This document shows positions 44,193 to 60,288 of a DNA stretch of 64,000 nt, piece after piece. Origin of the DNA: Comamonadaceae bacterium PBBC1 (GTDB lineage: Bacteria; Pseudomonadota; Gammaproteobacteria; Burkholderiales; Burkholderiaceae_C). Below the pieces are notes generated by a model, which had not been told where the DNA came from, did not search any database, and saw only the letters and a program-made list of their open reading frames with translations. The translations under genes were made by a program, and so were the position numbers. The stretch lies in NCBI GenBank assembly GCA_002256145.1, contig NKIP01000008.1, positions 62,001 to 126,000 on the forward strand. Reading direction: 5' to 3'. Positions within the stretch are counted from its first letter, which is position 1. Each line of letters begins with the position of its first letter.

Positions 44193-46336
44193 GCGGCAAT
44201 GCCTTCCAGTCGGCGCTCAATGCGGTTTTGCAGCCAGCCAATCACCCGCTGGCGCAGACCTTGTTTGAAGCGGTCCCAGGCGCTGGGGTTGTTGATGATC
44301 TCGGCCCGGTAAAACGAGGGGCACAGCACCGCCGCGTGCGCGACCTCGCCGCACAAACCGCAGCCCACGCAACTGTCGGCCACGGCCGCCACCGGGTCTT
44401 GGCGCAGCGGATCGGGGTTGGGCTTGATGCTGAGCGACGGGCAGCCCGACAGGCGAATGCACGAGTGGTCGCCGGTGCAGGTGTCGGGGTCAATGCCAAA
44501 GCGCTCGCGCACCACGCGCTCACCTTTTTGGATGCGCTGGCGAATCAGCGGCTTGACGCGGCGCTGGCGGTTGAGCATGCATTCGCTTTGCGCCACGATG
44601 ACCTTGGGGCCTTGCTGCTTCGTGGTCAGGGCGTCGCGCAAGGTCTGGCGCATTTGGTCCAGGCTGTAGGTGTGGGTCACGGTCTTGACCCATTCAACCC
44701 CCACGCCGCGCACGGCCTTTTCAATCGGGTTGTTGGTGCTGCGAATCGGGTTGATGGCTTTGGACGAGAGCACGTCCTGCCCGCCGGTCGCTGCCGAATA
44801 ACCGTTGTCCACCACCAGCAGCAAGTTGTCGGACTGGTTGAACACCGCGTTGCCCACGCCGCTGGTCAGGCCGTTGTGCCAAAAGCCCCCGTCGCCCATG
44901 ATCGAGACGGTGCGCTTGCTCGTCTCGTTGGTGTTGAAGGCCGAAGCGCCCGCCCAGCCCAGGCCATAGCCCATGGTGGTGGCACCAATGTTGAAGGGCG
45001 GCAGGATCGAAAACAAGTGGCAGCCGATGTCGCAGCTCACATGGTGCTGACCCAGCTCTTTTTCGATCATCTTGATGGCTGTGAAGATGGGCCGCTCCGG
45101 GCAACCGGTGCAAAACGACGGTGGGCGAGGGTGCACTTGGGCCACGGCTTCGCTGATCGCCAGTTGGTTGCTCGCTTGAACTGCGGGCACTGTTGCTGGC
45201 AGCAGGTGCGCCGCGTATTGCGCGATGAATGCCCGGATGCCTTTCAGCACCACCCCACCGGTGTATTCGCCGCCCATGGGCAACACATCCTTCCCGTGCA
45301 CCTCGGTGTTCAGACCCGCCTTGTGCAAGATGCTGTGGATGTTTTGCTCAATGAAGTCGGGCTGGCCTTCTTCGACCACCAGCAAGCCACGCTTGCCCGC
45401 ACAAAAGCGCTTGAACTCCTCGTCCACCAGCGGGTAGGTGATGTTGAGCACATACAGCGGGATGTCGGTCTTGCCGAAGTCGTCCGCCAGGCCCAGCAAC
45501 TGCAGCGCGCGCACCACGCCGTTGTACAGACCTCCTTGCAGCACGATGCCAAAGTCCTGAGCACCTTCAGAGAAGAATTCGTTGAGCTGGTGTTCCTGAA
45601 TGAACTTGACCGCAGCGGGCCACCGTTTGTGGGTTTTTTCCTGCTCGTGCAGGTAGCTGGCGGGGGGCAACACGATGCGGTTGACATCGCGCTTGGGGTT
45701 TTCGATGGCGTCTTTGAGCGTGAAGCTGGGGCGCACGTTGTCCCGGGTGGGAAAGCGGCCGTGCACATGGCAGGCGCGGATGCGCAACTCCAGCATCACC
45801 GGCGTGTTGCTGGCCTCGGACAGCTCAAAGCCTTTTTCCACCGCGTGCACGATGCTCGGCAGGTTGGGGCGGGGGTCGATCAGCCAGACCTGCGACTTCA
45901 TGGCAAAGGCGTGCGAGCGCTCTTGCATGATGCTCGAGCCCTCACCGTAATCCTCGCCCACGATCAGCATGGCGCCGCCGGTGACGCCGCCTGAGGCCAG
46001 ATTGGCCAGTGCGTCCGACGCCACATTGGTGCCCACGGTGGATTTGAAGGTGACCGCGCCGCGCAAGGGGTAGTTGACCGAGGCGGCCAAAGTGGCGGCG
46101 GCCGTGGCTTCCGAGGCGCTGTGCTCAAAATGCACACCCAGCTCTTGCAAGATGTCATTCGCATCGGTCAGCACATCCATCAGGTGCGAGATCGGTGCGC
46201 CTTGGTAGCCCGCCACATACGAGACGCCCGACTGCAGCAAAGCCTTGGTCACGGCCAAAATGCCCTCGCCATGGAATTCGTCGCCATCGCCCAAGCGCAG
46301 TTTTTGCACCTCTTGCACAAACGAGCGTTCAGCCAT
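44189..46336 (-). CDS. iorA: Indolepyruvate ferredoxin oxidoreductase alpha-like subunit
   Basis: A 715-residue thiamine-diphosphate enzyme. It has a pyruvate-binding domain near the N-terminus, and the ThDP/Mg segment MGDGGFWHNGLTSG with following DNGYSAATGGQD near residues 480-525. A C-terminal ferredoxin-like part shows CTGDHSCIRLSGCPS and CVGCGLCGE. It oxidatively decarboxylates aryl-pyruvates and reduces ferredoxin. ATG 46336 is used over a TTG at 46342. With the TRAP importer downstream it may serve uptake and breakdown of aromatic oxoacids. Confidence 0.9.
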
Positions 46337-46375
46337 GCCCAAAACCTTTCACGGGGTTTTGACCCCTTAGTGACC

Positions 46376-46418
46376 CATTGAATGGATTTCAATGTAGGCC
46401 AGCTGCACAGGCTGTGCA
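46376..46418. promoter_or_regulatory. Two palindromes between iorA and the LysR gene
   Basis: CATTGAA-(5)-TTCAATG (46376-46394) and TGCACA-(3)-TGTGCA (46404-46418) are perfect inverted repeats in the 161-bp divergent gap. LysR proteins bind such interrupted palindromes. The first ends 40 bp upstream of the iorA ATG and is a candidate operator for the adjacent regulator. Confidence 0.5.
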
Positions 46419-46497
46419 AATGGATTCTTCCAATGGTGTACATTGATGTTGTGAATAATTGGTAGCAACCCTTATTTGTTTGAGCCATGGGGCAAGC

Positions 46498-47412
46498 ATG
46501 AATTTCCGACAACTCGACCTGAACCTCTTGCGGGTGCTGGTGGCCATCCACCGCAGCCGCTCGGTCACGGCGGCGGGCAAGGCGTTGGCCTTGTCGCAGC
46601 CCGCCACCAGCAACGCCTTGGCCCGTTTGCGCGAATTTTTTGGCGATGAATTGTTTGTGCGCTCGCCCGCTGGTTTGCAGCCCACGCGGCTGTGCGAACA
46701 ACTGGCACCCACCATGCAATCGCAGTTGCTGGCCATGGAAAGCCTGGTGCTCAACCACCAGCCTTTTGACGCATTGAGCAGCCAGCGCCATTGGCGCTTG
46801 TCTTTGTCCGACTTGGGCGAAATTTTGTTTTTGCCGCGCCTGGCTTCGGCGCTGCGCAAAGTCTCGCCCCAGGCGAGTTTGTCCAACGTGTCGGTGGATG
46901 CGTCCCAAGTGGCGGCGGCCCTGGAGTCGCGTGACATCGACATGGCCATCGGCATCCTCAAGCCGCAACACCGGGGCATACGCAGCCAGCTGTTGTTCAA
47001 GGAACGCTACATGGCCATCTCTGCCAAAGACTGGTCACCCACACCCCGTGGGCGTGGGCGCACCCTCAGCCCTGCGCAATTGGCGCAAGCGAATTTTGTG
47101 GTGGTCTCGCCTACAGCGACCTTCCATGGGAGTGTGGAAAAAATGCTGGCGGGCATGAAACTGCAAGACCGAATTCTGGTGCGTCCCCGCCACTTTGGCG
47201 CGATCGCCGAGCTGGCGCAAAACACCGATTTGTTGTGCATCGTGCCCGAAATGTACGCCCGCGAACTGAGCCAGCGCGTGCAGCTGCAGATGTGGGCCTT
47301 CGAGGACGCACCTGTTTATGAGGTGCACATGCTGTGGCACAGCAGCACCGAGCAGGACTCGGATCAGCAATGGATGCGGGCAGAGGTGGAGCGCTTGTTT
47401 GCACGGGGTTAA
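46498..47412 (+). CDS. LysR-family transcriptional regulator
   Basis: A 304-residue regulator with an N-terminal winged helix (segment SVTAAGKALALSQPATSNALARL) and a C-terminal effector-binding domain. The ATG at 46498 places the family start (MNFRQLDLNLL) at residue 1. It is divergent from the ior/TRAP genes, so it probably activates them in response to the imported acid. The FVRSPAGLQPT segment is typical of the NodD/NahR-like branch that answers to aromatic compounds. Confidence 0.9.
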   Translation: MNFRQLDLNLLRVLVAIHRSRSVTAAGKALALSQPATSNALARLREFFGDELFVRSPAGLQPTRLCEQLAPTMQSQLLAMESLVLNHQPFDALSSQRHWRLSLSDLGEILFLPRLASALRKVSPQASLSNVSVDASQVAAALESRDIDMAIGILKPQHRGIRSQLLFKERYMAISAKDWSPTPRGRGRTLSPAQLAQANFVVVSPTATFHGSVEKMLAGMKLQDRILVRPRHFGAIAELAQNTDLLCIVPEMYARELSQRVQLQMWAFEDAPVYEVHMLWHSSTEQDSDQQWMRAEVERLFARG

Positions 47413-47460
47413 GGTGTGAATCTTTGCTGCAGGTGGTCGTGGTGACAAGCTCAGCGCTGT

Positions 47461-47528
47461 CAAATATCTAAAAATTAAATAAATTAAGAATAGTCTTTAT
47501 AAATCTTTAATTTCGGTATACTTTGACC
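47461..47528 (+). promoter_or_regulatory. AT-rich promoter region directly before an ATPase gene
   Basis: This 60-bp stretch is strikingly AT-rich compared with its surroundings. A TATACT (-10-like) box is at 47517-47522, only 6 bp before the ATG at 47529. The predicted transcription start would fall on or next to the ATG, giving a leaderless message. No ribosome binding site is visible. The -35 element is unclear. Confidence 0.4.
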
Positions 47529-48722
47529 ATGAATCCGATTCTTAACCCTTATGCGCCCGGTGCGGGCACCCCTCCACCCGAGCTGGCGGGCCGCGACGAA
47601 TTGCGTGAAAAAGTGCGGGTGGCCATCGGCCGCATCCGCATTGGTAATCCCGCGAAAAGTGTATTGATGGTGGGTTTGCGCGGCGTAGGCAAAACCGTGT
47701 TGCTGGACAGAATGCGTCAGGACGCCGAAGCCAGCGGGGTCTACACCCTGAAGCTGGAGGCTCCCGAAGACCGCTCTTTGCCAGCCTTGTTGGCACCTCA
47801 GTTGCGCTTGATTTTGCTCAAACTCAGCGCTGTCGAATCGGCCAAAGCCTATGCGACGCGCGGGCTGCGTGCCTTGGCTGGTTTTGCCAAAGCCCTCAAG
47901 GTCAAATTCAACGACATCGAGGTTGGGCTCGACTTGGAGCCCGAGTTGGGTTTGGCCGACAACGGCGACTTGGAGGGCGATCTGGCTGTGTTGTTGGAGC
48001 AGGTGGGCTTGGCGGCCCAAAGTGCCAAAACTGCCGTGGTCATGTTCATCGATGAACTGCAATACGTGAAAGAGGCCGAGCTTGCCGCGCTCATCACCGC
48101 ATTGCACCGATGTGCCCAAGCCAAGTTGCCCGTGACCGTGATTGGGGCCGGCTTGCCTCAATTGTTGGCGCGGGCGGGACAAGCCAAATCTTATTCTGAG
48201 CGCTTGTTTGATTACCCCATGGTCGGCCCTTTGTCACTGGCCGACGCCAGCCAGGCCATCACCCGTCCAGCGGAAGAACTCAACGTGGTGTTTGAGCCCG
48301 AAGCCATCGATGAAATTTACAAAGACACCGACGGCTATCCATACTTTTTGCAAATGTGGAGCAAGTACGCCTGGGATGTGGCGACGATCAGCCCCATCAC
48401 GCGTACGGATGTCCAGCGGGCCAGGTTGTTGACCGAAGCAGACTTGGATGAAAGCTTTTTCAAAACCCGTTTTGAACGCTGCACACCCAGCGAACGGCGC
48501 TACCTGCGGGCCATGGCATCGCTGGGCTCTGGTCCGCACCGCTCGGGTGATATCGCTGCGGCGCTGGGACGATCCATCAACACCTTGGGCATGGTGCGAA
48601 GCAGCCTCATCAACAAAGGCATGGTCTGGAGCCCCAGCCACGGAGATACGGCGTTCACCGTGCCCTTGTTCGATCAGTTCATGATTCGCGTTATGCCGGG
48701 AGACGGTTGGCGGCAGGTGTGA
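47529..48722 (+). CDS. ATPase of AAA/ORC1-like type with C-terminal helical domain
   Basis: A 397-residue P-loop ATPase. Walker A is GLRGVGKT (residues 49-56) and Walker B is VVMFIDE (170-176). The stretch TVIGAGLPQL near residue 205 is a sensor-like strand and a winged-helix-like end follows. The fold resembles the archaeal-type/ORC1-like ATPases that occur in bacterial accessory regions. No function is established. No ribosome binding site is visible. It stands alone, with a different ATPase gene 130 bp behind. Confidence 0.75.
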   Translation: MNPILNPYAPGAGTPPPELAGRDELREKVRVAIGRIRIGNPAKSVLMVGLRGVGKTVLLDRMRQDAEASGVYTLKLEAPEDRSLPALLAPQLRLILLKLSAVESAKAYATRGLRALAGFAKALKVKFNDIEVGLDLEPELGLADNGDLEGDLAVLLEQVGLAAQSAKTAVVMFIDELQYVKEAELAALITALHRCAQAKLPVTVIGAGLPQLLARAGQAKSYSERLFDYPMVGPLSLADASQAITRPAEELNVVFEPEAIDEIYKDTDGYPYFLQMWSKYAWDVATISPITRTDVQRARLLTEADLDESFFKTRFERCTPSERRYLRAMASLGSGPHRSGDIAAALGRSINTLGMVRSSLINKGMVWSPSHGDTAFTVPLFDQFMIRVMPGDGWRQV

Positions 48723-48814
48723 TGCTGGGGCTGATGCGCCCCCTGAATGGCAACACAAGGACCTGAATTGACACCGTCAATTCAGTGACTGCTCAAATTA
48801 AGGTCTTAAAATAA

Positions 48815-48851
48815 CCTTGCATTTTGATAAACCACCTATCAAAATGCAAGG
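48815..48851. promoter_or_regulatory. Perfect 15-bp inverted repeat ending at the start codon of the second ATPase gene
   Basis: CCTTGCATTTTGATA (48815-48829) and its exact reverse complement (48837-48851) flank a 7-bp loop. The right arm ends at the base before the ATG at 48852, and the only possible ribosome site (CAAGG) is inside it. It could be an operator or an mRNA hairpin blocking translation. Confidence 0.7.
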
Positions 48852-50096
48852 ATGATTGATCGTATTTTCATGGCCGATTTGTCGGACCGATTGTCTTTTT
48901 ATCCGGGTGTTGTTTTGCTAGGCGCTCGCCAAGTGGGCAAGTCCACCTTGGCGCGGCAGGTGGCGGCGCAAATGCCAGGCGCGTTATTTCTGGATCTGGA
49001 ACTTCCGGCTGACCGGGCCAAACTTGACAACCCCGCTGCATTTTTTGCTGCGCACCGTGACCACTTGGTGGTCATTGACGAAGTGCAAACCATGCCCAAC
49101 TTGTTTGTGCAGCTGCGCCCCGAAATCGACGCGGACCGACGGCCTGGACGTTTCTTGTTGCTGGGTTCTGCCAGTGGGGTGTTGCTCAGGCAAACAGCTG
49201 AATCGTTGGCTGGGCGGGTCAGTTACCTGGAGTTGCCGCCTTTACTCTGGTCCGAAGTCCAAGCCAAAGTTCAACCTGGAGGGGCCGCCCATCAAGAAGC
49301 CACCAGCGATCCTGTACAGCAGGCCACGCAGCAGTTGTTGGCCCTGCAATCGCATTGGCAACGCGGGGGCATGCCCCTGAGTTGTTTGGCCAAAAAGGAC
49401 GCGCAATCGCTGCGCTGGCGCAACGATTACTTGCAATCGGTGGTTCGACGAGATTTACCCAGCTTGGGTATTCACATTCCCAGCGAAACCTTGTGGCGTT
49501 TTTTGCGCATGCTGGCGCACCAGCACGGGCAGCTTTTTAATGCTTCGGCGCTGGCCGTGGCCATGGGCGGCATCTCACCCATCACGGTGGGCCGCTACCT
49601 CGACATCTTTTGTGATGCCCTGATCGTGCGCAAAGTTGAGCCCTATTTCGTGAACCTGGGCAAGCGTCTGGTCAAGTCGCCCAAGGTGTATTTCCGCGAC
49701 ACTGGCTTGCTGCACGCCCTGCTGGGCATAGGCAACGCGCAAGACCTGCAAGGCCACCCCATGTCGGGGTTTTCTTGGGAAGGGCTGGTGGTCAACCACA
49801 TCGCCGCATTGTTGCCCTTGATCGCCGGTGGCAACGCGAGTCTGCACTTTTTCCGAACCGCCGCTGGGGCCGAACTCGACGCAGTGGTCGACACGGGGCA
49901 AGAGCGCTTGGGGTTTGAAATCAAGCTCTCCGACGCCCCCCGCGTGACCAAAGGCTTCTGGAACGCCTGCGCCGACCTGCAAGTCAGCCGCGCTTATGTG
50001 GTGGCCCCCGTGTCAAGCAGCTGGCCGCTGTCAGACAAGGCGCAGGTGATTGGGCTTTTGGATGTGGGGCGGGTCTTGGGGATTGTTGAGCCTTGA
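48852..50096 (+). CDS. AAA_14/DUF4143-family ATPase
   Basis: A 414-residue protein with an N-terminal ATPase domain (Walker A GARQVGKS at 24-31, Walker B LVVIDE at 72-77) and a C-terminal DUF4143 domain resembling a nuclease fold (segments FFRTAAGAELDAVVD and GFEIKLSDAP). These ATPases are common in bacterial genomes, often single and variable between strains. Their function is not known. The second half of the last domain is duplicated in degraded form 190 bp downstream. Translation may begin at 48852 or at ATG 48870. Confidence 0.85.
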   Translation: MIDRIFMADLSDRLSFYPGVVLLGARQVGKSTLARQVAAQMPGALFLDLELPADRAKLDNPAAFFAAHRDHLVVIDEVQTMPNLFVQLRPEIDADRRPGRFLLLGSASGVLLRQTAESLAGRVSYLELPPLLWSEVQAKVQPGGAAHQEATSDPVQQATQQLLALQSHWQRGGMPLSCLAKKDAQSLRWRNDYLQSVVRRDLPSLGIHIPSETLWRFLRMLAHQHGQLFNASALAVAMGGISPITVGRYLDIFCDALIVRKVEPYFVNLGKRLVKSPKVYFRDTGLLHALLGIGNAQDLQGHPMSGFSWEGLVVNHIAALLPLIAGGNASLHFFRTAAGAELDAVVDTGQERLGFEIKLSDAPRVTKGFWNACADLQVSRAYVVAPVSSSWPLSDKAQVIGLLDVGRVLGIVEP

Positions 50097-50100
50097 CGCC

Positions 50101-50250
50101 GCAGCTGGCCAGGGGCGGTGACTTTGCCGACGGTGTGATTGCAGCCGATCGTGAGCTGCTGGGCGGCACCGAGTTTGTGTCATTTGAGCAGCAGGCCATT
50201 CAGCTGCTGATGGCACAAAAACGCAAGGCGCGGTTGTTGGTTGTGTCAAG
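50101..50250 (+). pseudogene. C-terminal remnant of a VapC-like PIN toxin
   Basis: The frame reads GGDFADGVIAADRELLGG and TEFVSFEQQAIQLL. This resembles the last third of VapC-type PIN toxins, where the DFADG Asp is a metal ligand and xFVSFD begins the final strand. The first two thirds of the gene are absent and there is no start codon with a ribosome site. Identification is from memory of the family and should be treated as likely, not certain. Confidence 0.5.
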
Positions 50251-50286
50251 GTGTGTGGCGCTATTGCGGTGCGTTTCTAAAAGAGG

Positions 50287-50430
50287 TGGAATGCCTGCGC
50301 CGACCTGCAAGTCGGCCGTGCTGATGTAGAGGCCCTTGTGTCAGCCAGCTGTCCGCTGGCCGAGAAGGCGCAAGTGATTGGGATGCTGGAGTGGGCCGGG
50401 TGTCAGAGGTGGTGTGAGGCGGTGCCATGA
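50287..50430 (+). pseudogene. Degraded duplicate of the 3' end of the AAA_14/DUF4143 gene
   Basis: Bases 50287-50405 align with 49959-50080 of the intact gene with scattered substitutions: WNACADLQVGRADVEALV here against WNACADLQVSRAYVVAPV there. The rest of the gene is missing. The divergence suggests an old tandem or independently acquired homologue that was later truncated. Confidence 0.75.
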
Positions 50431-50463
50431 GCGCTAACCAACAGTGAACAGGCTGAGAAGAAA

Positions 50464-50544
50464 CTGGCGGTGCCGGATTCGAACCGGATAATAGCGCAGC
50501 ACCGAAATGCTGACCTAACCATTCCCATTGGAAACAACCGCCAG
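50464..50544 (-). tRNA. tRNA-like element, possibly a degenerate tRNA
   Basis: Read on the minus strand, an 8-bp acceptor-like stem (CTGGCGGT with ACCGCCAG) closes an 81-nt unit. Inside are a T-arm CCGG-TTCGAAT-CCGG, an anticodon-like arm CAGCA-TTTCGG-TGCTG and a D-arm-like hairpin TTTCC/GGGAA. The TTCGAAT loop is typical of tRNA. The anticodon loop is 6 (or 8) nt instead of 7, and no CCA end is encoded. It may be a decayed tRNA or an unusual one; no anticodon can be assigned safely. Confidence 0.4.
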
Positions 50545-50712
50545 CCCGCTGGGATCATAAGGCAATACCAAAGTATCAGCGCTTGATTAAAATCAGCTGG
50601 TGCCGGGGCTACATCAAGTCCCAGATCGAGATTCTGGTCCCGTTTCGGACGTAAAGCTTGGGACCCGGTACACCGCTTTAAGAGTCGGCCAAATCAAAGC
50701 GCCATGCCGATC

Positions 50713-51222
50713 TCAATCGTCGAAATTCAACAGTTCCTCGTCGCTGTCATCCTCGTCGGCTGGACGTGTTCTTTCGTTGATGTTGTGTTGGAGCAGCTGC
50801 AAGGCGAGTGACGGAAACTCTGCCATTGACCAAAGCCGCTTGTATTCGGCTTCTCCGTGGGTTTGGAGCACCGATGTGGCTGCGTCGCCAATGGCTTGCG
50901 CAAATGCCAATCGATGGGTGTCGAAGCTCATTTGCCATTCGGTTTCGCCGGGGTCACCGAACATGGACATTTCTTCATAAGCCGTGATGGACACCCGAAT
51001 CTCGCCTGAGATGGGGGCGAACGACCAGCGGTAGGTGCCGGGCTCATCGAGCAGGTCAATGGACATGTCTCTTGCGCCCATCAAACAGGCATTGGCCATC
51101 ATCACCAGTTGTTCGAGTCCATGCGTGAGATAAGACACCTGCAACACCCGGACTTGTTCATCGTGTCGGACTTCGCAGCGTGCCCAGCCGACGCCGCGCA
51201 CCGTGTAGTCGATCTTCAGCAT
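50713..51222 (-). CDS. Unknown 169-residue protein coupled to the type IIG enzyme
   Basis: No family was recognised. The protein is hydrophilic, with no signal or membrane segment. Aromatic and acidic residues are frequent, and it ends in a strongly acidic tail (about residues 150-169, rich in Asp and Glu). Its ATG lies 7 bp inside the 3' end of the restriction-modification gene, so it is translated from the same message. It may assist, regulate or protect against that enzyme; position is the only evidence. It is not a recognisable methyltransferase, nuclease or DNA-binding protein. Confidence 0.7.
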   Translation of the reverse strand: MLKIDYTVRGVGWARCEVRHDEQVRVLQVSYLTHGLEQLVMMANACLMGARDMSIDLLDEPGTYRWSFAPISGEIRVSITAYEEMSMFGDPGETEWQMSFDTHRLAFAQAIGDAATSVLQTHGEAEYKRLWSMAEFPSLALQLLQHNINERTRPADEDDSDEELLNFDD

Positions 51223-54200
51223 GAGGCGTATGTCTCACCCTGTTGGCGCACCCGGCCAATGGCCATCAGCGTGTCCAAAATCACGGGTAAACGGTCGCGC
51301 CAGCGGCCTTTGGCTTTGAAGTGGGCGGCGATGGCGTCCATGTCCAGCGGGACGGGGGTGGCGCTGAGCACGGCGGCCACGGCCTTGATTTGTTCAGGCA
51401 CTGTGGTGGGCCAGGCTTGTTGGGTGGTGGGTTTTGTAGCTGCTGGGCGGGTGTCTTCGTTGTCTTCGCCGTCGTTGGCGTTCGTGTCGATGCCCGAGTT
51501 TTTCTTTGTGCTTTGCTTTGTTCCGATCTTTGTTCCTGATGGTGTGGGCGTGTCGTCTTCCATGTCCAGGCTGGCTTGTTGGGCCACGGGAAGCGCTTTG
51601 GACGTTGCCGGGTTTTGGTAGTCGGGGCGCAGCCAGCGGATGGTGCCGGTGGCTTCTTCGGCGGCGCGGCGGGTGTTCAGGGCCACCAGGCGTTGCAGCA
51701 GGGTGCCGTTCCAGGCGGCGCGGGCGGTGGTGCTGGCTTCGTCTTGGCCGCAGGGGGCGGAGCCGAGGTCTTGCCAGCCGTAGGCCGTCAGCACGGCGGT
51801 GTCGAGTTCTTCGTGCAGGGTGCGCAGCACCGACACCAGGCCTTGTTTGTGGAGGGTTTTGTCTTTGGCGCTCAGGGCTTCGCCGCTGCGCAATTTTTCC
51901 AGCACGTTGTACATGCCGGTGAGTGTGAGGTCAGGGTGTGCGGCTTGTTGGGTTTTGCGGTGCGCGTCGAGTTGTTCGGCCAGCTGGCGGATGCGCTCCG
52001 CCAATGCGGGCGTGAGGCCGGTGTCTTCGGCGGGGAAGGGGAAGGTTTCGAAGCAGCGGGTTTTGACGTAAACCGGGTCGTTGCCAACGCCTAACCAGCT
52101 GCCTGCAGACAGCGCCCAAGACGAGTGCAGACTGCTTGACAACACACCCAATTGATACGCGTCCTGCAGCGCAATCGCCACCAGTTTGTTGTCTGGCAGA
52201 ACGGTGTCATTGAGAAATTGAAAGACCCGGTGTTTCGCGGTTTCCACAGTGACTATGTAGCGCGGCAAACCGTCAAGAGCCATTCGCAAATCTTCCCGCA
52301 AACGGCGGTGCAGCCACCATCGAGTTCTCAACAGTTCATTGCGGTTGACATCTCTTTCTGGCTTGACGCGCTCCAAGACCCATTGATAGACAGAGGGAAA
52401 TTCTTCTCGTACTTGGTCTGCTGTCAGACCAAAAAGGTCAATCACCATCACATCCCGTGGAGTTCCCGTGAGGTCGCGACCGTTGCGATATTCGCGAATA
52501 TGCTTTTCAATTCCAGCGACAGCGCCGAGACCAAGTTGGGACGCCTCTGAGCGCTTTACGATAAAGCCAGCACCACCCAACTCGAACCCGCGATTGGAAA
52601 TTCCAAAAGTGGATTTCAGTGTTTTGGCCGCCGCCACATTGGCCCCAATGCGCAAATCGGCGTGCAGCAAGCCCTGGCTTTCGCTCACGGTCACGGCCAC
52701 TTCGCCGTCGTCTTGTGGGGTTTCACTTTGCACCGTGAGCAAGCGCCCGGTGTGTTCGCCTGCTTGCGCGGCGGTCATGGCAATGCGCACGGCCGCGCCG
52801 TTGGCGCCGTCCACCCAGGGGTGGTCGGCCACCGCAAAAACAAGCGAGAGGGGTTTCAGGCTGGGGGGCGCAAGGCCGGGGGCCGATTTCTGCGCGTTTG
52901 GCAGCATGAGGCCCCCGGCCTTGCGCCCCCCAGCCTTGTCAGCGACAGTCTCAGCGCCCGTTGGGTTCCAAGACCCGTCGAGCGCCGCCTGCATCACGCG
53001 GCGGTTGAAGGTTTGTTTGATGCTGTTGGTGGTGATGAAGCCAAAGCGTTCGGCCCCGCCTGCGCTCACGGTCAGCGCGGCCTGGTGCCACCAGTACATG
53101 ACCAGGTCGGCGCTTTCGGGCACCTCGGGCCAGGTGCTGCGCAGCGCGTCCACATAACCGTCACCCAAGGCGGCGCGCATGGTGCTGGCACCAATGAAGG
53201 GCGGGTTGCCCACGATGAAATGCACCTTGGGCCACTGCGCTTTGCGCGGGTGGATGTAACGCTCTTGCACCACTTGGGCGGATTCGTCGGGCACGTTCAG
53301 GCCAGTGACCGGGTGGGGTTTGAAGGTTTTGCCGTCCCAGCGGGTGACGATCTGACCCGCTGCGTCTTTTTGGGGTTCGGTGCCGTCGCAGGCCAGCACC
53401 GCGTCTCGGTTTTCGATGTTGCCGTAGTCGTGCACCACCGGCTCGGCGATGTTGCCCACGCCCACGGTGCGCGCTTGCCACTGCAGGTAGCCGATCCACA
53501 GCACCAACTCGGCCAGGGCAGCGGCACGGGGGTTGAGTTCGATGCCCAACAGTTGCTGCAGGGTGACGGTTTCGCCCTCCAGGTTCAGGCTGTTCTGGCC
53601 CGCGTCCAACGCTTCGAGTTGGTTGAGCACTTCGCCTTCGAGGCGTTTGAGGTGTTCCAGCGTCACATACAAAAAGTTGCCACTGCCGCAGGCCGGGTCC
53701 AGTACCAGCACGGTGCACAGGCGGTGGTGAAAGGCTTTGACGGTCTGGATGGCTTCGCGTTTGTTGGCGCGGGCGCTGGCGCGCAGCGCATCGATTTCTT
53801 TCAGTTCCTCTTTGACTTTGTGATTGGCCTCGCGCTGTGTTTTTTGTTGTTGGGCGAGGGTGTCGCTCAGTTGGTCGGCTTCTGCGTTGAGGGCGTCGTG
53901 CTCGCCCATCAGCAGCAAGGTGGCCGCTTGGGTATCGTTCCATTCGGCGCGCAGCGGGTCGATGACGGTGGGGATGACCAGGCGGTCCACATAGGCGCGG
54001 GGCGTGAAGTGTGCGCCCAGGGCGTGGCGCTCGTCCGGGTCCAGGGCGCGTTCGAGCAAGGTACCAAAGATGGCGGGCTCCACCTCGGTCCAGTTGGCTT
54101 TGGCGGCTTCGAGCAGGCTGTCGATTTGGCTGCGGTTCAGGGGCAGGGCGTAGCCATCGGCTTGTGAGGCTTTGAAAAGCTTGCCGTTGAACTTGAGCAC

Positions 54201-55052
54201 TTCGCGGGCCAGCGCGGCGCTGAAGCCCCCCCGGTCCATGTCGGCCCACAGGGCTTGCAGCATGCGTTGCAGCGTGGGCGGGTGTTCGCGATGGCGCTGC
54301 AGCAATTCGCTGAACGCGCCTTTGCCCTCTCCCTTGTCGCTGGCGGGCAGCAGGCCCACGTCTTCGGCAAACATGCTGAACAGGCAGCGGGTCAGGAAGG
54401 CACCGACCTGGTGAGCGGGGTGTCCATCGGCCTCCAGGCTTTTGGCCACGGTGGCCAGTTGTTTGGCCACTTCGCGGGTGACTTGGGCGTTGGCGCGGCT
54501 GGGGTCCAGCGCCATGGGGTCGGTCCAAACTTGGCGCAGGCGGTGGCGGATTTTTTCGTCGCGCAGGTCTTGCAGCTTGATCTGGTGGCTGCGCGGATCA
54601 GGAAAGGGGATGTAGTTGCCGCCGGTGCGGCTGAATTCAGAAAACAGCTGGATGATCTGGCCGACATCGACCACCAGGATGATGGGCGGGCGGCCTTCGG
54701 CGGCGGGCAGGGCGCGGGCGTAGTTTTGCGCTTGGGCGTGAGCGCCGTACAGTGTTTTGCTGTAGCTTTTGGTGTGGCTGCCGATGTTGACTTTTTTGGC
54801 TTCGAGAATGAAGTGGCCGCGTTTGTAGCAGTCCACGTACCGGTCTGATTCTTGGCCGTCGGCATGCGCTTCTTTCAAAGCGCGTTCAAACATGTAGTCC
54901 CGGTCTGCGGTGGCGTGCGGTCTGGGCACGTCCAGCAGTTCGCACAGTTCAATGATGAAGCTTTGCGATGTGGCGCGTTCGCTGGCGGTGCTGATTGCCC
55001 AGCGCTGGATGAATTTTTCGGCGCGCTCGTCTTGGGTATTTATGGGGTCCAT
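51216..55052 (-). CDS. Type IIG restriction-modification enzyme (MmeI-like)
   Basis: A 1278-residue single-chain enzyme. A PD-(D/E)xK nuclease site is near the N-terminus: Asp74 and Glu84-Ala-Lys86 in the FILEAKK stretch. A helical spacer reaches about residue 440. The adenine-methyltransferase domain has motif I DPACGSGNF (452-460) and motif IV NPPF (616-619). The target-recognition region follows. A Lys/Asp/Thr-rich linker (about 1150-1210) leads to a final helical, winged-helix-like end. Such enzymes cut and methylate DNA with one polypeptide. Residues 706-732 are encoded by an inserted palindrome inside the methyltransferase domain. Confidence 0.88.
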   Translation of the reverse strand: MDPINTQDERAEKFIQRWAISTASERATSQSFIIELCELLDVPRPHATADRDYMFERALKEAHADGQESDRYVDCYKRGHFILEAKKVNIGSHTKSYSKTLYGAHAQAQNYARALPAAEGRPPIILVVDVGQIIQLFSEFSRTGGNYIPFPDPRSHQIKLQDLRDEKIRHRLRQVWTDPMALDPSRANAQVTREVAKQLATVAKSLEADGHPAHQVGAFLTRCLFSMFAEDVGLLPASDKGEGKGAFSELLQRHREHPPTLQRMLQALWADMDRGGFSAALAREVLKFNGKLFKASQADGYALPLNRSQIDSLLEAAKANWTEVEPAIFGTLLERALDPDERHALGAHFTPRAYVDRLVIPTVIDPLRAEWNDTQAATLLLMGEHDALNAEADQLSDTLAQQQKTQREANHKVKEELKEIDALRASARANKREAIQTVKAFHHRLCTVLVLDPACGSGNFLYVTLEHLKRLEGEVLNQLEALDAGQNSLNLEGETVTLQQLLGIELNPRAAALAELVLWIGYLQWQARTVGVGNIAEPVVHDYGNIENRDAVLACDGTEPQKDAAGQIVTRWDGKTFKPHPVTGLNVPDESAQVVQERYIHPRKAQWPKVHFIVGNPPFIGASTMRAALGDGYVDALRSTWPEVPESADLVMYWWHQAALTVSAGGAERFGFITTNSIKQTFNRRVMQAALDGSWNPTGAETVADKAGGRKAGGLMLPNAQKSAPGLAPPSLKPLSLVFAVADHPWVDGANGAAVRIAMTAAQAGEHTGRLLTVQSETPQDDGEVAVTVSESQGLLHADLRIGANVAAAKTLKSTFGISNRGFELGGAGFIVKRSEASQLGLGAVAGIEKHIREYRNGRDLTGTPRDVMVIDLFGLTADQVREEFPSVYQWVLERVKPERDVNRNELLRTRWWLHRRLREDLRMALDGLPRYIVTVETAKHRVFQFLNDTVLPDNKLVAIALQDAYQLGVLSSSLHSSWALSAGSWLGVGNDPVYVKTRCFETFPFPAEDTGLTPALAERIRQLAEQLDAHRKTQQAAHPDLTLTGMYNVLEKLRSGEALSAKDKTLHKQGLVSVLRTLHEELDTAVLTAYGWQDLGSAPCGQDEASTTARAAWNGTLLQRLVALNTRRAAEEATGTIRWLRPDYQNPATSKALPVAQQASLDMEDDTPTPSGTKIGTKQSTKKNSGIDTNANDGEDNEDTRPAATKPTTQQAWPTTVPEQIKAVAAVLSATPVPLDMDAIAAHFKAKGRWRDRLPVILDTLMAIGRVRQQGETYASC
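52858..52936. repeat. Palindromic insert within the restriction-modification gene
   Basis: Perfect 27-bp arms (52858-52884 and 52910-52936) surround a 25-nt loop. The arms are very GC-rich (AGGCTGGGGGGCGCAAGGCC at the start). The element is read through in frame and encodes K706 to L732 of the enzyme, a Gly/Pro/Ala/Lys-rich peptide. It lies between conserved segments FNRRVMQAAL and LVFAVADHPWVDG. Confidence 0.85.
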
Positions 55053-55089
55053 GATTCATATCATAGACTCCAAAATAAATACTTTTTAT

Positions 55090-55416
55090 TCAATATTGAG
55101 CGTCTTGCTGCGGAACTTCGTAGTCGTCTTGTGCCTTGATCACACGCACGCCGTGCTTGCTCAAAATCTCTACATACACCGATGTGGCCCCTGTTTTGGC
55201 GGCGGCGTCCACGGCTTCGATCACGGCGCTCACGCGAACCACTTCGGCGGTGTCGGCGGTCAGGCCCACTTTGCAGTCAAAGTCCCAAAAGTCTACGCCC
55301 TTGGGCAGGGCGCGGTTGCGTTCACGTTTGAAGTATTTGCGGATGTCGTGCTTGACGGCTTCAAGCACGCGGTCGGGGTGCTTGCCTTCGGCTTGCAGGG
55401 GAAAGTTCTTTTTCAT
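55090..55416 (-). CDS. DUF6172-family protein
   Basis: A 108-residue protein that fits the DUF6172 family, with the landmarks KKNFPLQAEGKHPDRV and LPKGVDFWDFDCKVG. It is cytoplasmic and mostly of mixed alpha/beta type; function unknown. ATG 55416 is used because the family begins there. Upstream codons belong to the divergent promoter gap shared with the VapB-like gene. It lies 37 bp from the start of the restriction-modification gene, on the same strand. Confidence 0.78.
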   Translation of the reverse strand: MKKNFPLQAEGKHPDRVLEAVKHDIRKYFKRERNRALPKGVDFWDFDCKVGLTADTAEVVRVSAVIEAVDAAAKTGATSVYVEILSKHGVRVIKAQDDYEVPQQDAQY

Positions 55417-55564
55417 GGGGGGGTCCTGAGGGGTGGGCAAGCGCCCGGTCCGGACGTGAATGCAGGGGCGAATTATCGCTGGTTTGCTTGGGCGCACGGG
55501 GCAACACGGTGGTGCACATCAAGACGGCTTGTGCATATTGATGTATTCATGCAAAAATGCAGAC

Positions 55565-55849
55565 ATGCGAACTTCACTTGATTTTCCCGACGCGCTGTTC
55601 AAGCACCTCAAAACCCGTGCAGCCCAAGAGGGCAGGACCTTGCGCGACCTGGTCATTGAGCTGGTGGAGCGGGGCTTGACCGCCCGCGAGGTGGTGGACC
55701 CGCAAAAGCGGTTTGAGGCCAGGCCACTGATCATTCCAAACCAAGGCCCATTGCCGCTGCATCTGAGCAAATTGACCAATGCCGATTTGTATGAATTGAT
55801 CAACGAGGAAGACGATGAGCGAACCATCCAGCTCTTGGGGCGTGGCTGA
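55565..55849 (+). CDS. VapB-like antitoxin
   Basis: A 94-residue protein whose N-terminus is a ribbon-helix-helix DNA-binding unit (MRTSLDFPDALFKHLKTRA then TLRDLVIELVERGL). A C-terminal arm for toxin binding ends in an acidic stretch. ATG 55565 matches the family start. It overlaps the following PIN toxin gene by 35 bp, so translation is coupled. Confidence 0.82.
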   Translation: MRTSLDFPDALFKHLKTRAAQEGRTLRDLVIELVERGLTAREVVDPQKRFEARPLIIPNQGPLPLHLSKLTNADLYELINEEDDERTIQLLGRG

Positions 55850-56351
55850 GGCCTCGGCCAACTGGCGATTGGCACCGGGTGATTTGCTCGATGTCAATGT
55901 GTGGGTGGGGCTTTGCAGTGCCGCTCACCCGTTTCATGCGCAGGCCATGCGCTACTGGGAATCGGCCTGCGCGGCCGCAACGCCTTTGTGGTTTTGCCGC
56001 AGCACCATGATGGGTTTGGTGCGCGTGCTGTCGCAACCCCGCGCGATGGGCCTCAATGTGTTGAGTCTGACGCAGGCCATGACCATGTACCGCCAATGGT
56101 TGGAAACGCCTGCCGTGGGAATGCTGGCCGACCCGCCTGGTTTGGATGACGCCATTGCGCAGTTACTGGGGCGTCGCGGTGAGCCCCAGCCCATTCGCTT
56201 GTGGACCGACATGTGCCTGGCGGCCACAGCCCAAAGCGCAGGCCTGCGCATGGTCACCTTCGACCGTGACTTTGAGCGTTTTGGGCTGACGCGTTGTTTG
56301 GTGTTGCCAACCGACACCAACCCCCACACCAACCCAGACACCGCGCCCTGA
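55815..56351 (+). CDS. VapC-like PIN toxin
   Basis: A 178-residue PIN-domain protein with active-site acids in LLDVNVWVGL (Asp26), in LWTDMCLAA and in VTFDRDFERF. This pattern fits a metal-dependent RNase. The first about 20 residues precede the usual family start. A GAGGAAG site precedes the ATG. The order antitoxin-toxin is normal for VapBC. The cleaved RNA cannot be predicted. Confidence 0.83.
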   Translation: MSEPSSSWGVAEASANWRLAPGDLLDVNVWVGLCSAAHPFHAQAMRYWESACAAATPLWFCRSTMMGLVRVLSQPRAMGLNVLSLTQAMTMYRQWLETPAVGMLADPPGLDDAIAQLLGRRGEPQPIRLWTDMCLAATAQSAGLRMVTFDRDFERFGLTRCLVLPTDTNPHTNPDTAP

Positions 56352-56362
56352 GCGCATTCACA

Positions 56363-57346
56363 TCAATCGGCCTTGATGCCCTGGTCTTTGATCAGGCGGG
56401 CCCAGCGTTCGGCATCGCGCTCGACCAGTTGGGCAAAGGCTTGTGGGGTGCTGCCGCTGGGGTCCATGCCTTGAGAGACAAATGCTTTTTGCACGTCTTC
56501 GCCGCCGAGCAGTTGGTTGATCTCGCGGTTGTACAGGTTGACGATGTCGGTCGGTGTGCCTTTGGGGGCAAAAAAGCCATACCACATGTCCACGTTCACA
56601 TTGCCTGCTTTGGCCTCGGCCAAGGTGGGCAGATCGGGCAGCAGGGCGTGGCGCTTGTCACTGCCAATGCCCAGCGCCACCAGTCGGCCAGATCGGATGT
56701 GCGGCAAGGCCACATGAATGGGCAAGAACATCGCGTCCACCTGGCCGCCGAGCAAATCGGTCACGGCCGGGCCGGTGCCCCGGTAAGGAATGTGGGTCAG
56801 AAACACCCGTGCGGTGTTTTTGAAGAGTTCCATGGACAAGTGGTGCGGTGTGCCCACGCCAGGCGATGCGTAATTGATGCGGCCCGGTTGAAGCCGTGCG
56901 GCTTGCACCAGTTCTGCAGCGGTTTTGTAGCCGGCTTTGGGGTGAGTGACCAAGAGCAATTGCCCCCAGCTGGTTTGCGAGACGGCCGTCAAGTCTTTCA
57001 CTGGGTCAAAACTCAATCCGGGGTACAGCGCCCGGTTCATGACCAGGGTGTTGACGCTCACCAACAAGGTGGTGCCATCGGGCGCGGCGCGCACCACAGC
57101 TTCGGTGCCAATGTTGCCGGATGCACCCACACGGTTCTCGACCACCACCGGACGGTTCAGGCGCTGCGAGAGTTTGGGCCCCAAGGTGCGTGCGATCAGG
57201 TCAATGCCCGTGCCGGGCGTGAAGGGCACGATCAGTTTCAGGGGCGCTTGGCTGGCTGCAGATTGAGCCCAAGCCAAGGGGGCAGCGCCCAAACTCAAAA
57301 GGCTGGCACCCAGCAAGGTGCTCAGTTGGCGGCGTGACGGGTTCAT
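56363..57346 (-). CDS. Orphan Bug/TctC-family periplasmic receptor
   Basis: A 327-residue exported receptor. An N-terminal SRRQLSTLLGAS stretch with a hydrophobic core gives a possible Tat-type signal. Family segments are LKLIVPFTPGTGIDL, ENRVGASGNIGTE and HIPYRGTG. It stands alone, convergent with the vapC-like gene and without transporter or catabolic neighbours. Ligand unknown. Confidence 0.88.
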   Translation of the reverse strand: MNPSRRQLSTLLGASLLSLGAAPLAWAQSAASQAPLKLIVPFTPGTGIDLIARTLGPKLSQRLNRPVVVENRVGASGNIGTEAVVRAAPDGTTLLVSVNTLVMNRALYPGLSFDPVKDLTAVSQTSWGQLLLVTHPKAGYKTAAELVQAARLQPGRINYASPGVGTPHHLSMELFKNTARVFLTHIPYRGTGPAVTDLLGGQVDAMFLPIHVALPHIRSGRLVALGIGSDKRHALLPDLPTLAEAKAGNVNVDMWYGFFAPKGTPTDIVNLYNREINQLLGGEDVQKAFVSQGMDPSGSTPQAFAQLVERDAERWARLIKDQGIKAD

Positions 57347-57451
57347 GGGGCGATCTCCAAGTGTTTTTGGTCAATGGTCATTATTGAAGAGCCCAGCTGT
57401 GCCTTGTACCTCTGGAGTCCCTTCACCTGTCGTGTGCCGGACAGTGCCGTG

Positions 57452-57949
57452 TCAGCGTAAACGGTACTTAAGCTGAAAACTGACCGCACCATACAGCCGG
57501 TCTTTGAGGGGCGGCACCAGCGCCACGTTCAGGCCCCAGTGCTGGCCTTCCAGGCTGGCGGTGGGAATGAGGGCTGGAAACCAACCGCCCTGGTAGGCAT
57601 TGGGGTAACCGTTGAAAGCCCCGGCCACCACGCCCAGCTTCACGCCGGCCCAAGTCCAGGGTTGGTAGTAGGCACCCACATAGTTGGAGTTGGCGTTGTT
57701 GCTGTTGCGAAAGCGCCCCGCTGTGGCTGACCAGGTGTCGTCAATGCGGTATTCGAAGCCGATGCCGGGGTTGGCGTTGCGCAGGCCTTGGTTGGTGTCA
57801 AAGTGGGCCGAGTAAAACCCGGCGTTGACCCACAGGCGGCTGGCGTCGAACTCGGCTTTTGCTGCGCTGCCTAATGTGCACAGCAAAACCAAGCTGAGGG
57901 CTTTGAGGGAAGAGCCCAAGACCAGATCAGGTGGAACTGGCAATTTCAT
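57452..57949 (-). CDS. Putative outer-membrane beta-barrel protein
   Basis: A 165-residue exported protein with a signal peptide (residues 1-36) and alternating hydrophobic/aromatic strands such as LWVNAGFYSAHF, GIGFEYRID and WSATAGRFRNS. It ends in a basic strand YRLR. The pattern suggests an eight-stranded barrel, and its size recalls PagP. The PagP catalytic residues could not be located, so that function is not claimed. ATG 57949 has a good GAGAGA site. Related proteins may occur in phages. Confidence 0.6.
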   Translation of the reverse strand: MKLPVPPDLVLGSSLKALSLVLLCTLGSAAKAEFDASRLWVNAGFYSAHFDTNQGLRNANPGIGFEYRIDDTWSATAGRFRNSNNANSNYVGAYYQPWTWAGVKLGVVAGAFNGYPNAYQGGWFPALIPTASLEGQHWGLNVALVPPLKDRLYGAVSFQLKYRLR

Positions 57950-58000
57950 CGGTGTCTCTCCATACAAGCCCAAGTTGCGGGCGGCGTTTTTGGGGCGTGT

Positions 58001-58033
58001 GCCACGCCCATCGCCCACAGGGCTCCCACAAAG
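58001..58033. repeat. Truncated copy of the GGGCTCC palindromic repeat
   Basis: GCCACGCCCATCGCCCACAG followed by GGCTCCCACAAAG matches the repeats at 15238 and 39539 but lacks the central GGTG, which breaks the palindrome. It ends one base before the hemL stop codon. Confidence 0.6.
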
Positions 58034-59329
58034 TCAGAGGGTTTTGAACACGTCGCCTGCCACCCGCACCGTCTCGGTGATGTCGGCTTCAGTGTGGGCG
58101 GCACTCACAAAGCCAGCTTCGTATAAAGCGGGCGCGATGTAGACACCGCCGTCCAGCAGGCCGTGGAACAGTTTGTTGAACTTGGGACTGTCGCTGGTCA
58201 TGACCTGGGCGTAGTTTTGCGCCAACTCGGGCAGCAAGAAAAAGCCAAACATGCCGCCTTGGCAGTCGGCGCTGAAAGGCACGCCCGCATTGGCCGCAGC
58301 ACCTTTGAGGCCGTCAACCAAACTTTGCGTGCGAGAACTCAACGCATCCCAAAAGCCGGGCTTGGCGATCTCGCGCAGTGTGGCCAAGCCGCAGGCGGTG
58401 GCCACCGGGTTGCCGCTGAGCGTTCCCGCCTGGTAGACCGGGCCGGTGGGGGCCAACTGGCGCATGATCTCACGCGGACCGCCAAAGGCGGCCAAAGGCA
58501 TGCCGCCGCCAATCACCTTGCCCAGCACCGTCATGTCGGGCTTGAAGCCGGGGATCAATTTGGCGTACACGCTTTGTGCGCTGCCCAAGGCCACGCGGAA
58601 ACCGGACATCACTTCGTCAAACACCAGCAGCGCGCCGTGCTGTGTGCACAGCTCGCGGCAGCGCGTCATGAAGGGCACGCTGGCGCGCACAAAGTTCATG
58701 TTGCCCGCGATGGGCTCGATCATCACGCAGGCCAGTTCCTTGCCGTGCAGTGCAAAGGCTTCTTCCAGTTGCTGGATGTTGTTGTATTCCAGCACCAAGG
58801 TGTCGCGCACCACTTCGGGCGGCACACCCGCGCTGGTGGGGTTGCCAAAGGTGGCCAGGCCCGATCCTGCCTTGACGAGCAGCGCGTCGGCGTGTCCGTG
58901 GTAGCAGCCTTCGAACTTGATGAACTTGGTGCGGCCCGTCGCACCGCGTGCCAGCCGCAGGGCGCTCATGCCCGCTTCGGTGCCCGAGCTGACCAGGCGC
59001 ACCATTTCCATGGAGGGGACATGCTTGAGTATTTCTTCGGCCAGTTCGATCTCGCGCTCGGTGGGGGCACCAAACGAGAAGCCGTCCAGTGCCGCTTTTT
59101 GAACGGCTTCAAGCACGGCGGGGTGACCGTGGCCCAGGATCATGGGACCCCAAGAGCCGATGTAATCGATGTACTTTTGGCCGTTGGCGTCCCAAAAATA
59201 GGCACCCTGGGCACGCTGCACAAAGCGGGGTGTGCCCCCCACTGCGCGAAAGGCACGAACGGGAGAATTCACCCCCCCGGGGATCACCTGGGCGGCGCGG
59301 TCAAAAAGGGTTTGGTTGCGATCAGTCAT
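58034..59329 (-). CDS. hemL: Glutamate-1-semialdehyde 2,1-aminomutase
   Basis: A 431-residue PLP enzyme that makes 5-aminolevulinate for haem synthesis. Landmarks are [13 protein letters not shown] at the N-terminus, the cofactor loop [15 protein letters not shown], and the PLP lysine in [16 protein letters not shown]. Length is standard. The thiD gene lies 17 bp upstream on the same strand, and the pair is usually co-transcribed in Burkholderiales. Confidence 0.96.
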
Positions 59330-59346
59330 GGGGTGTGTCTCTGGCT

Positions 59347-60288
59347 TCAGTGTTTGGTTTCGTTGAAAGGTACTTCAAAGTAATCTGCCCCTGGGTGCAC
59401 TTCGGGATCCGCTTCGTCGTCGGTTTCATCGCCTTCGGGTAGTGCCCAAAACAGGCGGTCAGGGATGACCTGGCCCATGCCGGGCCGAAAGCCTTCGTCC
59501 AGGCACCGGTCCAGATAATGCAGTGCTTCGCTGGTGGCTTCGGGCAGGTCCATGCCGGTGGCCAGCAACGCGGCCAAAGCAGCGGTCAAGGTGTCACCGG
59601 CACCCGCAAATACAGCTTCAATGTGCTCGAATTTCTCGTGGGCCATCACCGACTCAGGTGACGTCAACACGTTGTCGATGTGCTGTTCGGGCAAGGGCAG
59701 ACCGGTCACCAGGGTGTAGGGCACGCCCCATTCGGATGCCGCCTTGGCAATGTCGCGTGGACCGGGGTTGCGCTGACCCGTCCATTCTGGCAAGAGCCAG
59801 CGGCGCAGCGTGCTGTGGTGGCCGATCAAGACGCTGGTCTGCGGCAACAGCAGTTCGCGAAAAGCGTCCAAGTAAGCGTCGATTTTGTCTTCTTCCCACC
59901 ACGACAAGTTGGGCATGTAGGCCACCACCGGCACACCTTCGTAGTCATCGGCCAACTCGGCGATTGCGCTCAAGTTTTCAGGTGTGCCCACAAAACCAAC
60001 CTTGATGACCTGCACCGGAACGTCTTCGGCCATGGTGCGGGCCTGGTCGTTCACGGCTTCGCTGTCCAGAGGGTAAAAGTCGGTGATGCTGGTGGTGTCA
60101 CGCACGTAGGCACCGGTGCACACGGGCAGGCAATGCGCCCCAACCGACGCCATGGCGACGGCATCGCAACTGAGGCCTCCAGCACCACTGGGGTCGTTGG
60201 CATTGAAGGACAGGACACAGGCCATGAGGGCAGGCTCTTGGTCGGCTAACAGCTGTTCAAGGTCGGGGTCGTGGCTGACGTCGGTCAT
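59347..60288 (-). CDS. thiD: ThiD-like hydroxymethylpyrimidine/phosphomethylpyrimidine kinase
   Basis: A 313-residue ribokinase-fold kinase for the pyrimidine half of thiamin. The N-terminal motif [11 protein letters not shown] and the C-terminal [14 protein letters not shown] (anion hole with catalytic Asp) are present. The middle differs from E. coli ThiD, and there is an acidic C-terminal tail (about 280-313) not usual in ThiD. No TPP riboswitch was recognised in the 105-bp gap to the divergent rubredoxin gene. Confidence 0.85.

Follow-up and report, generated by a model that had tools for sequence, protein, structure and literature searches.

A palindrome lying in frame in a type IIG restriction-enzyme gene belongs to a hairpin family of the Comamonadaceae

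In integron attC sites the boxes at the stem base are constant and the tip varies, and GGAG is one of the tetranucleotide heads of REPs. The heads GTAG and CGTC are described in PMC3733652, which gives CGTC-tagged REPs stems of 8-9 bp and a CGTC tag at one end. Rickettsia palindromic elements (RPEs) are, according to the review PMC10969869, about 150 bp long, present in many unrelated genes and the source of a conserved peptide encoded in them. An earlier note on the DNA analysed here, a window of 64,000 nucleotides from Comamonadaceae bacterium PBBC1, had compared a palindrome inside a restriction-enzyme gene with this Rickettsia setting. We found that the window palindrome belongs to a family of ~78-bp hairpin elements in the Comamonadaceae, dispersed among freshwater relatives of Limnohabitans, of which we met no earlier account in the accessible part of the open-licence literature searched; in two Rhodoferax genome papers the relevant passages deal with CRISPR.

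The palindrome consists of two perfectly complementary 27-bp arms around the 25-nt core GATTTCTGCGCGTTTGGCAGCATGA (52885-52909), and the window sequence confirms that these arms lie in frame in a type IIG gene, where the palindrome is read as residues 706-732 (KAGGRKAGGLMLPNAQKSAPGLAPPSL) of the uninterrupted 1278-codon frame, just as had been described. Its fold beats 200 of 200 dinucleotide shuffles on either strand, as DNA or as RNA (z about -9.5 to -10.4), and it was recovered at E 4.1e-14 by a covariance model of the family (R1) that was built without the window copy and for which no training locus was fetched from this genome. The features are collected in Table 1.

Table 1. Coordinates, in the window, of the host gene, the hairpin and its parts
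Feature	Position	Strand	Basis or remark
MmeI-like type IIG/IIL restriction-modification enzyme, 1278 aa, uninterrupted frame	51216..55052	-	Pfam, PADLOC, PDB
Whole hairpin element	52858..52936	+	+ is the folding strand (E strand) by the G:T test on the family; R1 match
Left arm, 27 nt	52858..52884	+	
Internal loop, 5' side, GATTT, constant family motif	52885..52889	+	
Inner stem, 5' side, CTGC	52890..52893	+	Predicted fold; inner stems covary between subfamilies
Apical loop GCGTTTG of the window copy's subfamily	52894..52900	+	Predicted fold and subfamily comparison
Inner stem, 3' side, GCAG	52901..52904	+	Predicted fold
Internal loop, 3' side, CATGA, constant except C/T at the first place	52905..52909	+	
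Right arm, 27 nt, perfectly complementary to the left one	52910..52936	+	
Gene stretch without counterpart in G003/G032 (net 111 bp, 37 codons)	52863..52976	-	BLAST

The host protein carries the Pfam domains MmeI_N, MmeI_hel, MmeI_Mtase and MmeI_TRD in one chain, all above the cut-offs, which places it among the MmeI-type IIG/IIL enzymes; PADLOC called the gene REase_MTase_IIG, and MmeI (5hr4) was the sole PDB match at E<=0.001 (E 9e-29). Matches to the enzyme were present at E<=1e-60 in 6 of 90 genomes of the genus and at E<=1e-100 in 22 of 200 genomes of a family sample. Two enzymes of the same genus (G003 and G032) are without the element and 111 bp (37 codons) shorter at the insertion site, having KPE where the window enzyme has 40 residues; their identity to it is 87-89% over residues 1-692 and 75-76% beyond. 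The insert thus exceeds the palindrome, comprising the 79-bp element and 32 bp of net flank, and the stretch without counterpart is most of the element plus a flanking piece. The insert starts about 12 residues past a stretch whose alignment to MmeI residues 474-543 is weak.

Reading the insertion site in 24 homologues used for a tree, we found 16 without the insert, five with it and three that the motif pair could not read, namely a carrier at a contig end (G267), an enzyme with abutting matches on both sides (G240) and one whose match stops short of the site (G188). Homologues lacking the segment, as the earlier note had supposed, therefore exist, G003 and G032 among the 16. The carriers found were G000, G020, G146, G152, G267 and G344, with a short fragment in G159; they have extra residues of varying length ahead of the core, Gly/Ala-rich in some. 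In the G020 enzyme (L098) the element has decayed arms and one in-frame TAG stop lies upstream of the insertion, and the G152 gene holds a second element of the family (L273 2540-2620; core GATTTGGCACGCGCAGCGCCTATGA), in frame and in E strand sense. On a tree of the 24 C-terminal segments, labelled as six carriers and 18 non-carriers with G188 and G240 counted among the latter, the element label requires three changes, two of them forced by well-supported branches, and a 21-row methyltransferase tree had the same outcome. The carriers are not one clade, and the element was gained more than once, or gained and then lost or transferred. The peptide AGGLMLPNAQKSAxG is common to G000 and G146, with the same or a near copy in G020, G152 and G344, as would be expected if the insert were a functional module that alters recognition or activity of the enzyme. 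We find this hardly credible, since the peptide is the translation of the subfamily core and 16 of the 24 homologues, two of them in the same genus, do without it. MLGYQKS, a candidate conserved peptide, was rejected, because cores of a different size would throw it out of frame.

An 18-nt piece of the arm occurs genome-wide, at zero mismatch, only in the window element, so that an arm-based search for a "79-bp element" misses the family. The 79-bp sequence and the arms were rejected as search handles, returning the element itself and copies that resemble mainly the core; a DNA search with the element gave two further hairpins that resemble it in the core and in a few adjoining bases. The core pattern GATTTCTGN{0,20}CAGCATGA has four occurrences in the genome of the window and is present in 51 of the 90 genus genomes, a few of its matches being armless and due to chance, and the reversed control pattern matched in none of the 90. 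A stricter pattern identified at least 119 stretches in named genomes, with Limnohabitans, Rhodoferax, Polaromonas and other Comamonadaceae/Burkholderiales among the sources listed. R1 gave nine matches in the genome of the window, one of them partial, matches in 85 of the 90 genus genomes with a maximum of 33 per genome and, under stricter filters and with non-matching genomes listed in part, matches in 2 of 369 genomes sampled across the class, both of them members of the window's family. The core of the IIG type (<=2 mismatches) was present in 16 of 399 family genomes and 12 of 141 genera, inside and outside the enzyme gene. One hairpin is identical in Limnohabitans sp. Bal53 (L106) and G017 (L048), which suggests that the genus of the 90 genomes is Limnohabitans. 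Further copies, which the earlier note had named as support for mobility, do exist in this genome and its relatives, without the common 79-bp sequence that had been assumed; what the copies share is the internal loop and covarying stems. The proposal of a mobile palindrome tolerated in frame stands without that sequence, because homologues lacking the segment and further copies of the element both exist.

Of 115 elements placed in their genomic context, 74 lie between automatically called ORFs (>=90 aa) and 41 inside one, although several of these ORFs look like genes that the automatic call has extended upstream. Most other copies are thus placed between automatically called genes, and the element was seen in one bacterial family, outside a setting like that of Rickettsia. 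The commonest gene families next to 110 loci look, by eye, like ordinary chromosomal genes at shared intergenic sites. In viral contigs there were no exact core matches and three matches to the peptide pattern, none of which encodes a relative of the enzyme. Two copies were also seen near the start of L161, titled Chitinophaga pinensis (MAG), about 2 kb before a gene that resembles, by eye, parC; this is probably a mis-binned Comamonadaceae contig.

The arms are 25-29 bp long in 143 of 207 distinct pattern matches and differ in sequence from copy to copy; by an ungapped walk, 15 of the 207 have arms below 5 bp, some of them chance matches and some with arms that start past a mismatched step. 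Nevertheless, pairing is retained. In an alignment of 57 diverged copies (A1), all 28 outer pairs have changed on both sides, 93.6% of the outer-pair cells are paired versus 34.7-45.1% with the partners slid, and the covariation score is 0.868 versus 0.126-0.164. The inner stems of 282 elements, counted with a pattern that fixes the internal loop, are CTGG/CCAG in 201, CTGC/GCAG in 18, GTGC/GCAC in 14 and GTGG/CCAC in 13, the rest being rarer. The internal loop GATTT/YATGA is constant across copies while the arms change, a constancy that is partly by construction, as it was the core pattern that retrieved most of them. Among 150 aligned model matches, out of 188 obtained with a model that itself favours this loop, 29 lie outside the fetch pattern and keep each loop position at 97-100%, except for one C/T. 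Outside the arms, 187 copies have no constant position.

At orthologous sites, defined by homology of both flanks, 601 pairwise comparisons gave, as raw counts, 1783 double and 726 one-sided changes that keep pairing, and 696 one-sided and 157 double changes that break it. Arms could also stay matched neutrally: in quasi-palindrome correction, a known process, template switching during replication copies one arm onto the other, and no selection is needed. This would account for compensated double changes at one site and for the presence, in one gene across genera, of matched hairpins whose arms are not alike. As an explanation of the family we consider it improbable, because it leaves unaccounted for the constant loop amid changing arms, the doublets and the unequal mismatches of the two strands (240 G:T versus 22 A:C) described below.

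In a neutrally decaying double-stranded repeat, equal numbers of mismatches are expected for both strands. The arm mismatches of 174 copies, read on the GATTT strand, comprise 240 G:T versus 22 A:C and 67 G:A versus 6 T:C; the count drops 33 of the 207 matches (short, truncated or ambiguous arms) and excludes pairs two and three counted from the core, at which roughly half of the copies show G.A/A.G. For a less redundant set of 109 copies the ratio of G:T to A:C is 40:2 for elements sense and 55:2 for elements antisense to tandem genes, 25:5 in convergent and 8:0 in divergent settings, and 43:7 without context, and at orthologous sites (162 copies) it is 230:40. The same bias in both tandem orientations speaks for the element's own strand and not for the host mRNA, and we read it as a constraint on that strand, as single-stranded DNA or as an RNA of its own. 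Among 61 single copies we were able to place 36, seven sense, 14 antisense, 11 convergent and four divergent, all of these orientations resting on automatic ORF calls; a role in mRNA was rejected on orientation, as no bias relative to the neighbouring genes appeared.

An RNA role is the main rival to a reading as single-stranded DNA. The E strand would be transcribed, and the hairpin and its loop would act as an sRNA, an mRNA 3' end or a protein-binding site. Such an RNA would be marked by just this covariation and wobble bias, and the copies are mostly found between called genes, several of them directly behind a stop codon. We nevertheless regard a structured RNA as rather unlikely, since there is no preferred orientation to the neighbouring genes (seven sense and 14 antisense among the 36 placed), the bias is equal in both tandem orientations and the window copy is antisense to its gene. 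In addition, no Rfam family was found above threshold: Rfam 15 had no match in positions 45000-60000 of the window and, at ten other loci, 18 matches, all below threshold and mostly to microRNA-precursor models. The mostly intergenic position by called genes, with several copies close to stop codons, would also suit a bidirectional transcription terminator or an mRNA stabiliser between genes. This is very unlikely, as position counts over 187 copies revealed no T-run after the arms and a terminator does not need a constant internal loop.

The 150 aligned model matches contain 47 close pairs, of which 41 have -+ order with spacings of 105-257 bp, and, as in REPINs, two inverted hairpins form one dispersed unit. 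In the low-GC genomes of the genus the element has been amplified as a ~205-bp inverted doublet with sharp ends. Fifteen aligned doublets from six genomes have the inside in common, and the flanks past their ends differ at most sites; some doublet sites are common to several species. Neither target duplication nor excision was seen. Left half-elements were observed in G018, G039 and G044, in L258 (immediately above 11293 and 12771), L265 (immediately below 7825 and 10986) and L261 (immediately above 7013). They end at the hairpin tip (CTCATRCTGR), and directly behind them comes a full doublet that begins (A)GCGTTGAG; right halves to match them did not turn up. They may stem from insertion into the tip or from slippage during replication.

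Inverted GGGGTC[AT]GA ends enclose 13 of 280 elements, the other 267 having no such paired ends; in any orientation, the motif lies within 150 bp of 26 of the 280 elements versus 3 of 280 in control windows 400-550 bp off. The repeat GGGGTCAGA, the same motif as the ends of the 13 composite hairpins, brackets the RAYT gene at 16 of 20 loci, and its long form GGGGTCAGATCAACATTAATTT or a near variant stands on both sides of RAYT in five genomes (G044, G076, G033, G026 and G018). With inverted RAYT-type ends around them, the 13 copies are REPINs that hold the hairpin as spacer, and RAYT is plausible as their mover. The hairpin itself does not flank RAYT genes as a RAYT-associated REP does: R1, at E up to 1, found none within ~1.5 kb of the 20 RAYT loci, and RAYT genes are present also in the five genus genomes without hairpin matches (G071, G074, G078, G081 and G083). 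Hairpins inside inverted GGGGTCAGATC...TTAATTT ends, of the type found around RAYT genes, were noticed at L259, L260, L262, L264, L108 and L156, and on contig C43 of the genome of the window (L224) a RAYT gene is flanked by TTAATTGGGGTCAGATCCCAATTAA-type palindromes (1106-1130 and 1893-1919).

The family, with its covariation, strand asymmetry, inverted doublets and lineage-specific amplification, would probably, though by no means surely, be explained by a REPIN-like non-autonomous hairpin that is recognised as single-stranded DNA through its internal loop and, in the window, tolerated in a putative loop of the enzyme. Arms that vary and yet stay matched, together with a constant loop motif, suggest that a factor of the cell recognises the folded single strand. 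We infer both this recognition of the folded E strand, as single-stranded DNA, by a loop-reading factor and the mobility of the element. In each element a long outer stem (mostly 25-29 bp), unconstrained in sequence but matched, is joined to a short inner stem through a constant 5x5 internal loop, GATTT/YATGA, and the factor would read this loop in the folded E strand as single-stranded DNA; if the loop is what is read, the arms must pair and need no fixed sequence. Its spread would be non-autonomous, in the manner of REPINs or MITEs, with doublets as units and, in some genomes, with the hairpin carried as a spacer between RAYT-type REPs. The window copy would have landed in a length-variable loop of the type IIG enzyme, in frame and free of stops, and been tolerated there.

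Several observations stand against this proposal. No enzyme is tied to the hairpin itself (0 of 20 RAYT loci, 267 of 280 copies without paired RAYT-type ends), the copy number is low (nine here, at most 33), and copies persist at the same intergenic sites, unlike active transposons. Moreover, the G:T excess is weaker in convergent settings and at orthologous sites, and the wobble asymmetry would fit an RNA equally. A distinct mobile hairpin, with the internal loop and not a sequence tag as its signal, drifting but compensated arms and a putative factor that reads one strand as single-stranded DNA, hitch-hiking as the spacer of RAYT REPINs, is a reading we hold as possible and tentative. The family is a large natural collection of hairpins that keep their structure as the sequence changes and that bear a mark of the folding strand, and it puts a direct question: are single-stranded hairpins selected in bacterial chromosomes, and by what? 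In the window, furthermore, a restriction-enzyme gene outside Rickettsia has taken up a palindrome in frame, and the origin of that palindrome is accounted for.

Compared with MmeI (PDB 5hr4), the host gene has the same gene family and domain order, and the 37-codon insert is absent from 16 of 24 homologues. Like Rickettsia palindromic elements, the window palindrome is in frame within a protein gene; the in-frame copies verified here are in the IIG gene family only, and 41 of 115 elements fell in automatically called ORFs. Integron attC sites are the reverse of the present family, in which the 28 outer pairs are all variable and the upper internal loop is constant. CGTC-tagged REPs are, in PMC3733652, likewise palindromic and dimeric, with some intragenic units, and flank no transposase gene, but the present stems are mostly 25-29 bp long and no constant tag lies outside them; nor does the family show a short stem with a constant head, be it GTAG/GGAG or CGTC, on its outside. 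REPINs/BIMEs differ in the same respects, the present family having long stems without a short constant head outside, its constant part in an internal loop high in the hairpin, and few copies, many kept at orthologous sites and none found beside the RAYT gene at 20 loci. The likeness to them lies in an inverted doublet unit, a hairpin expected in single-stranded DNA, compensatory changes and a unit without transposase, all reported in PMC3116915, and in the 13 of 280 copies that sit between REP ends like those around the RAYT gene.
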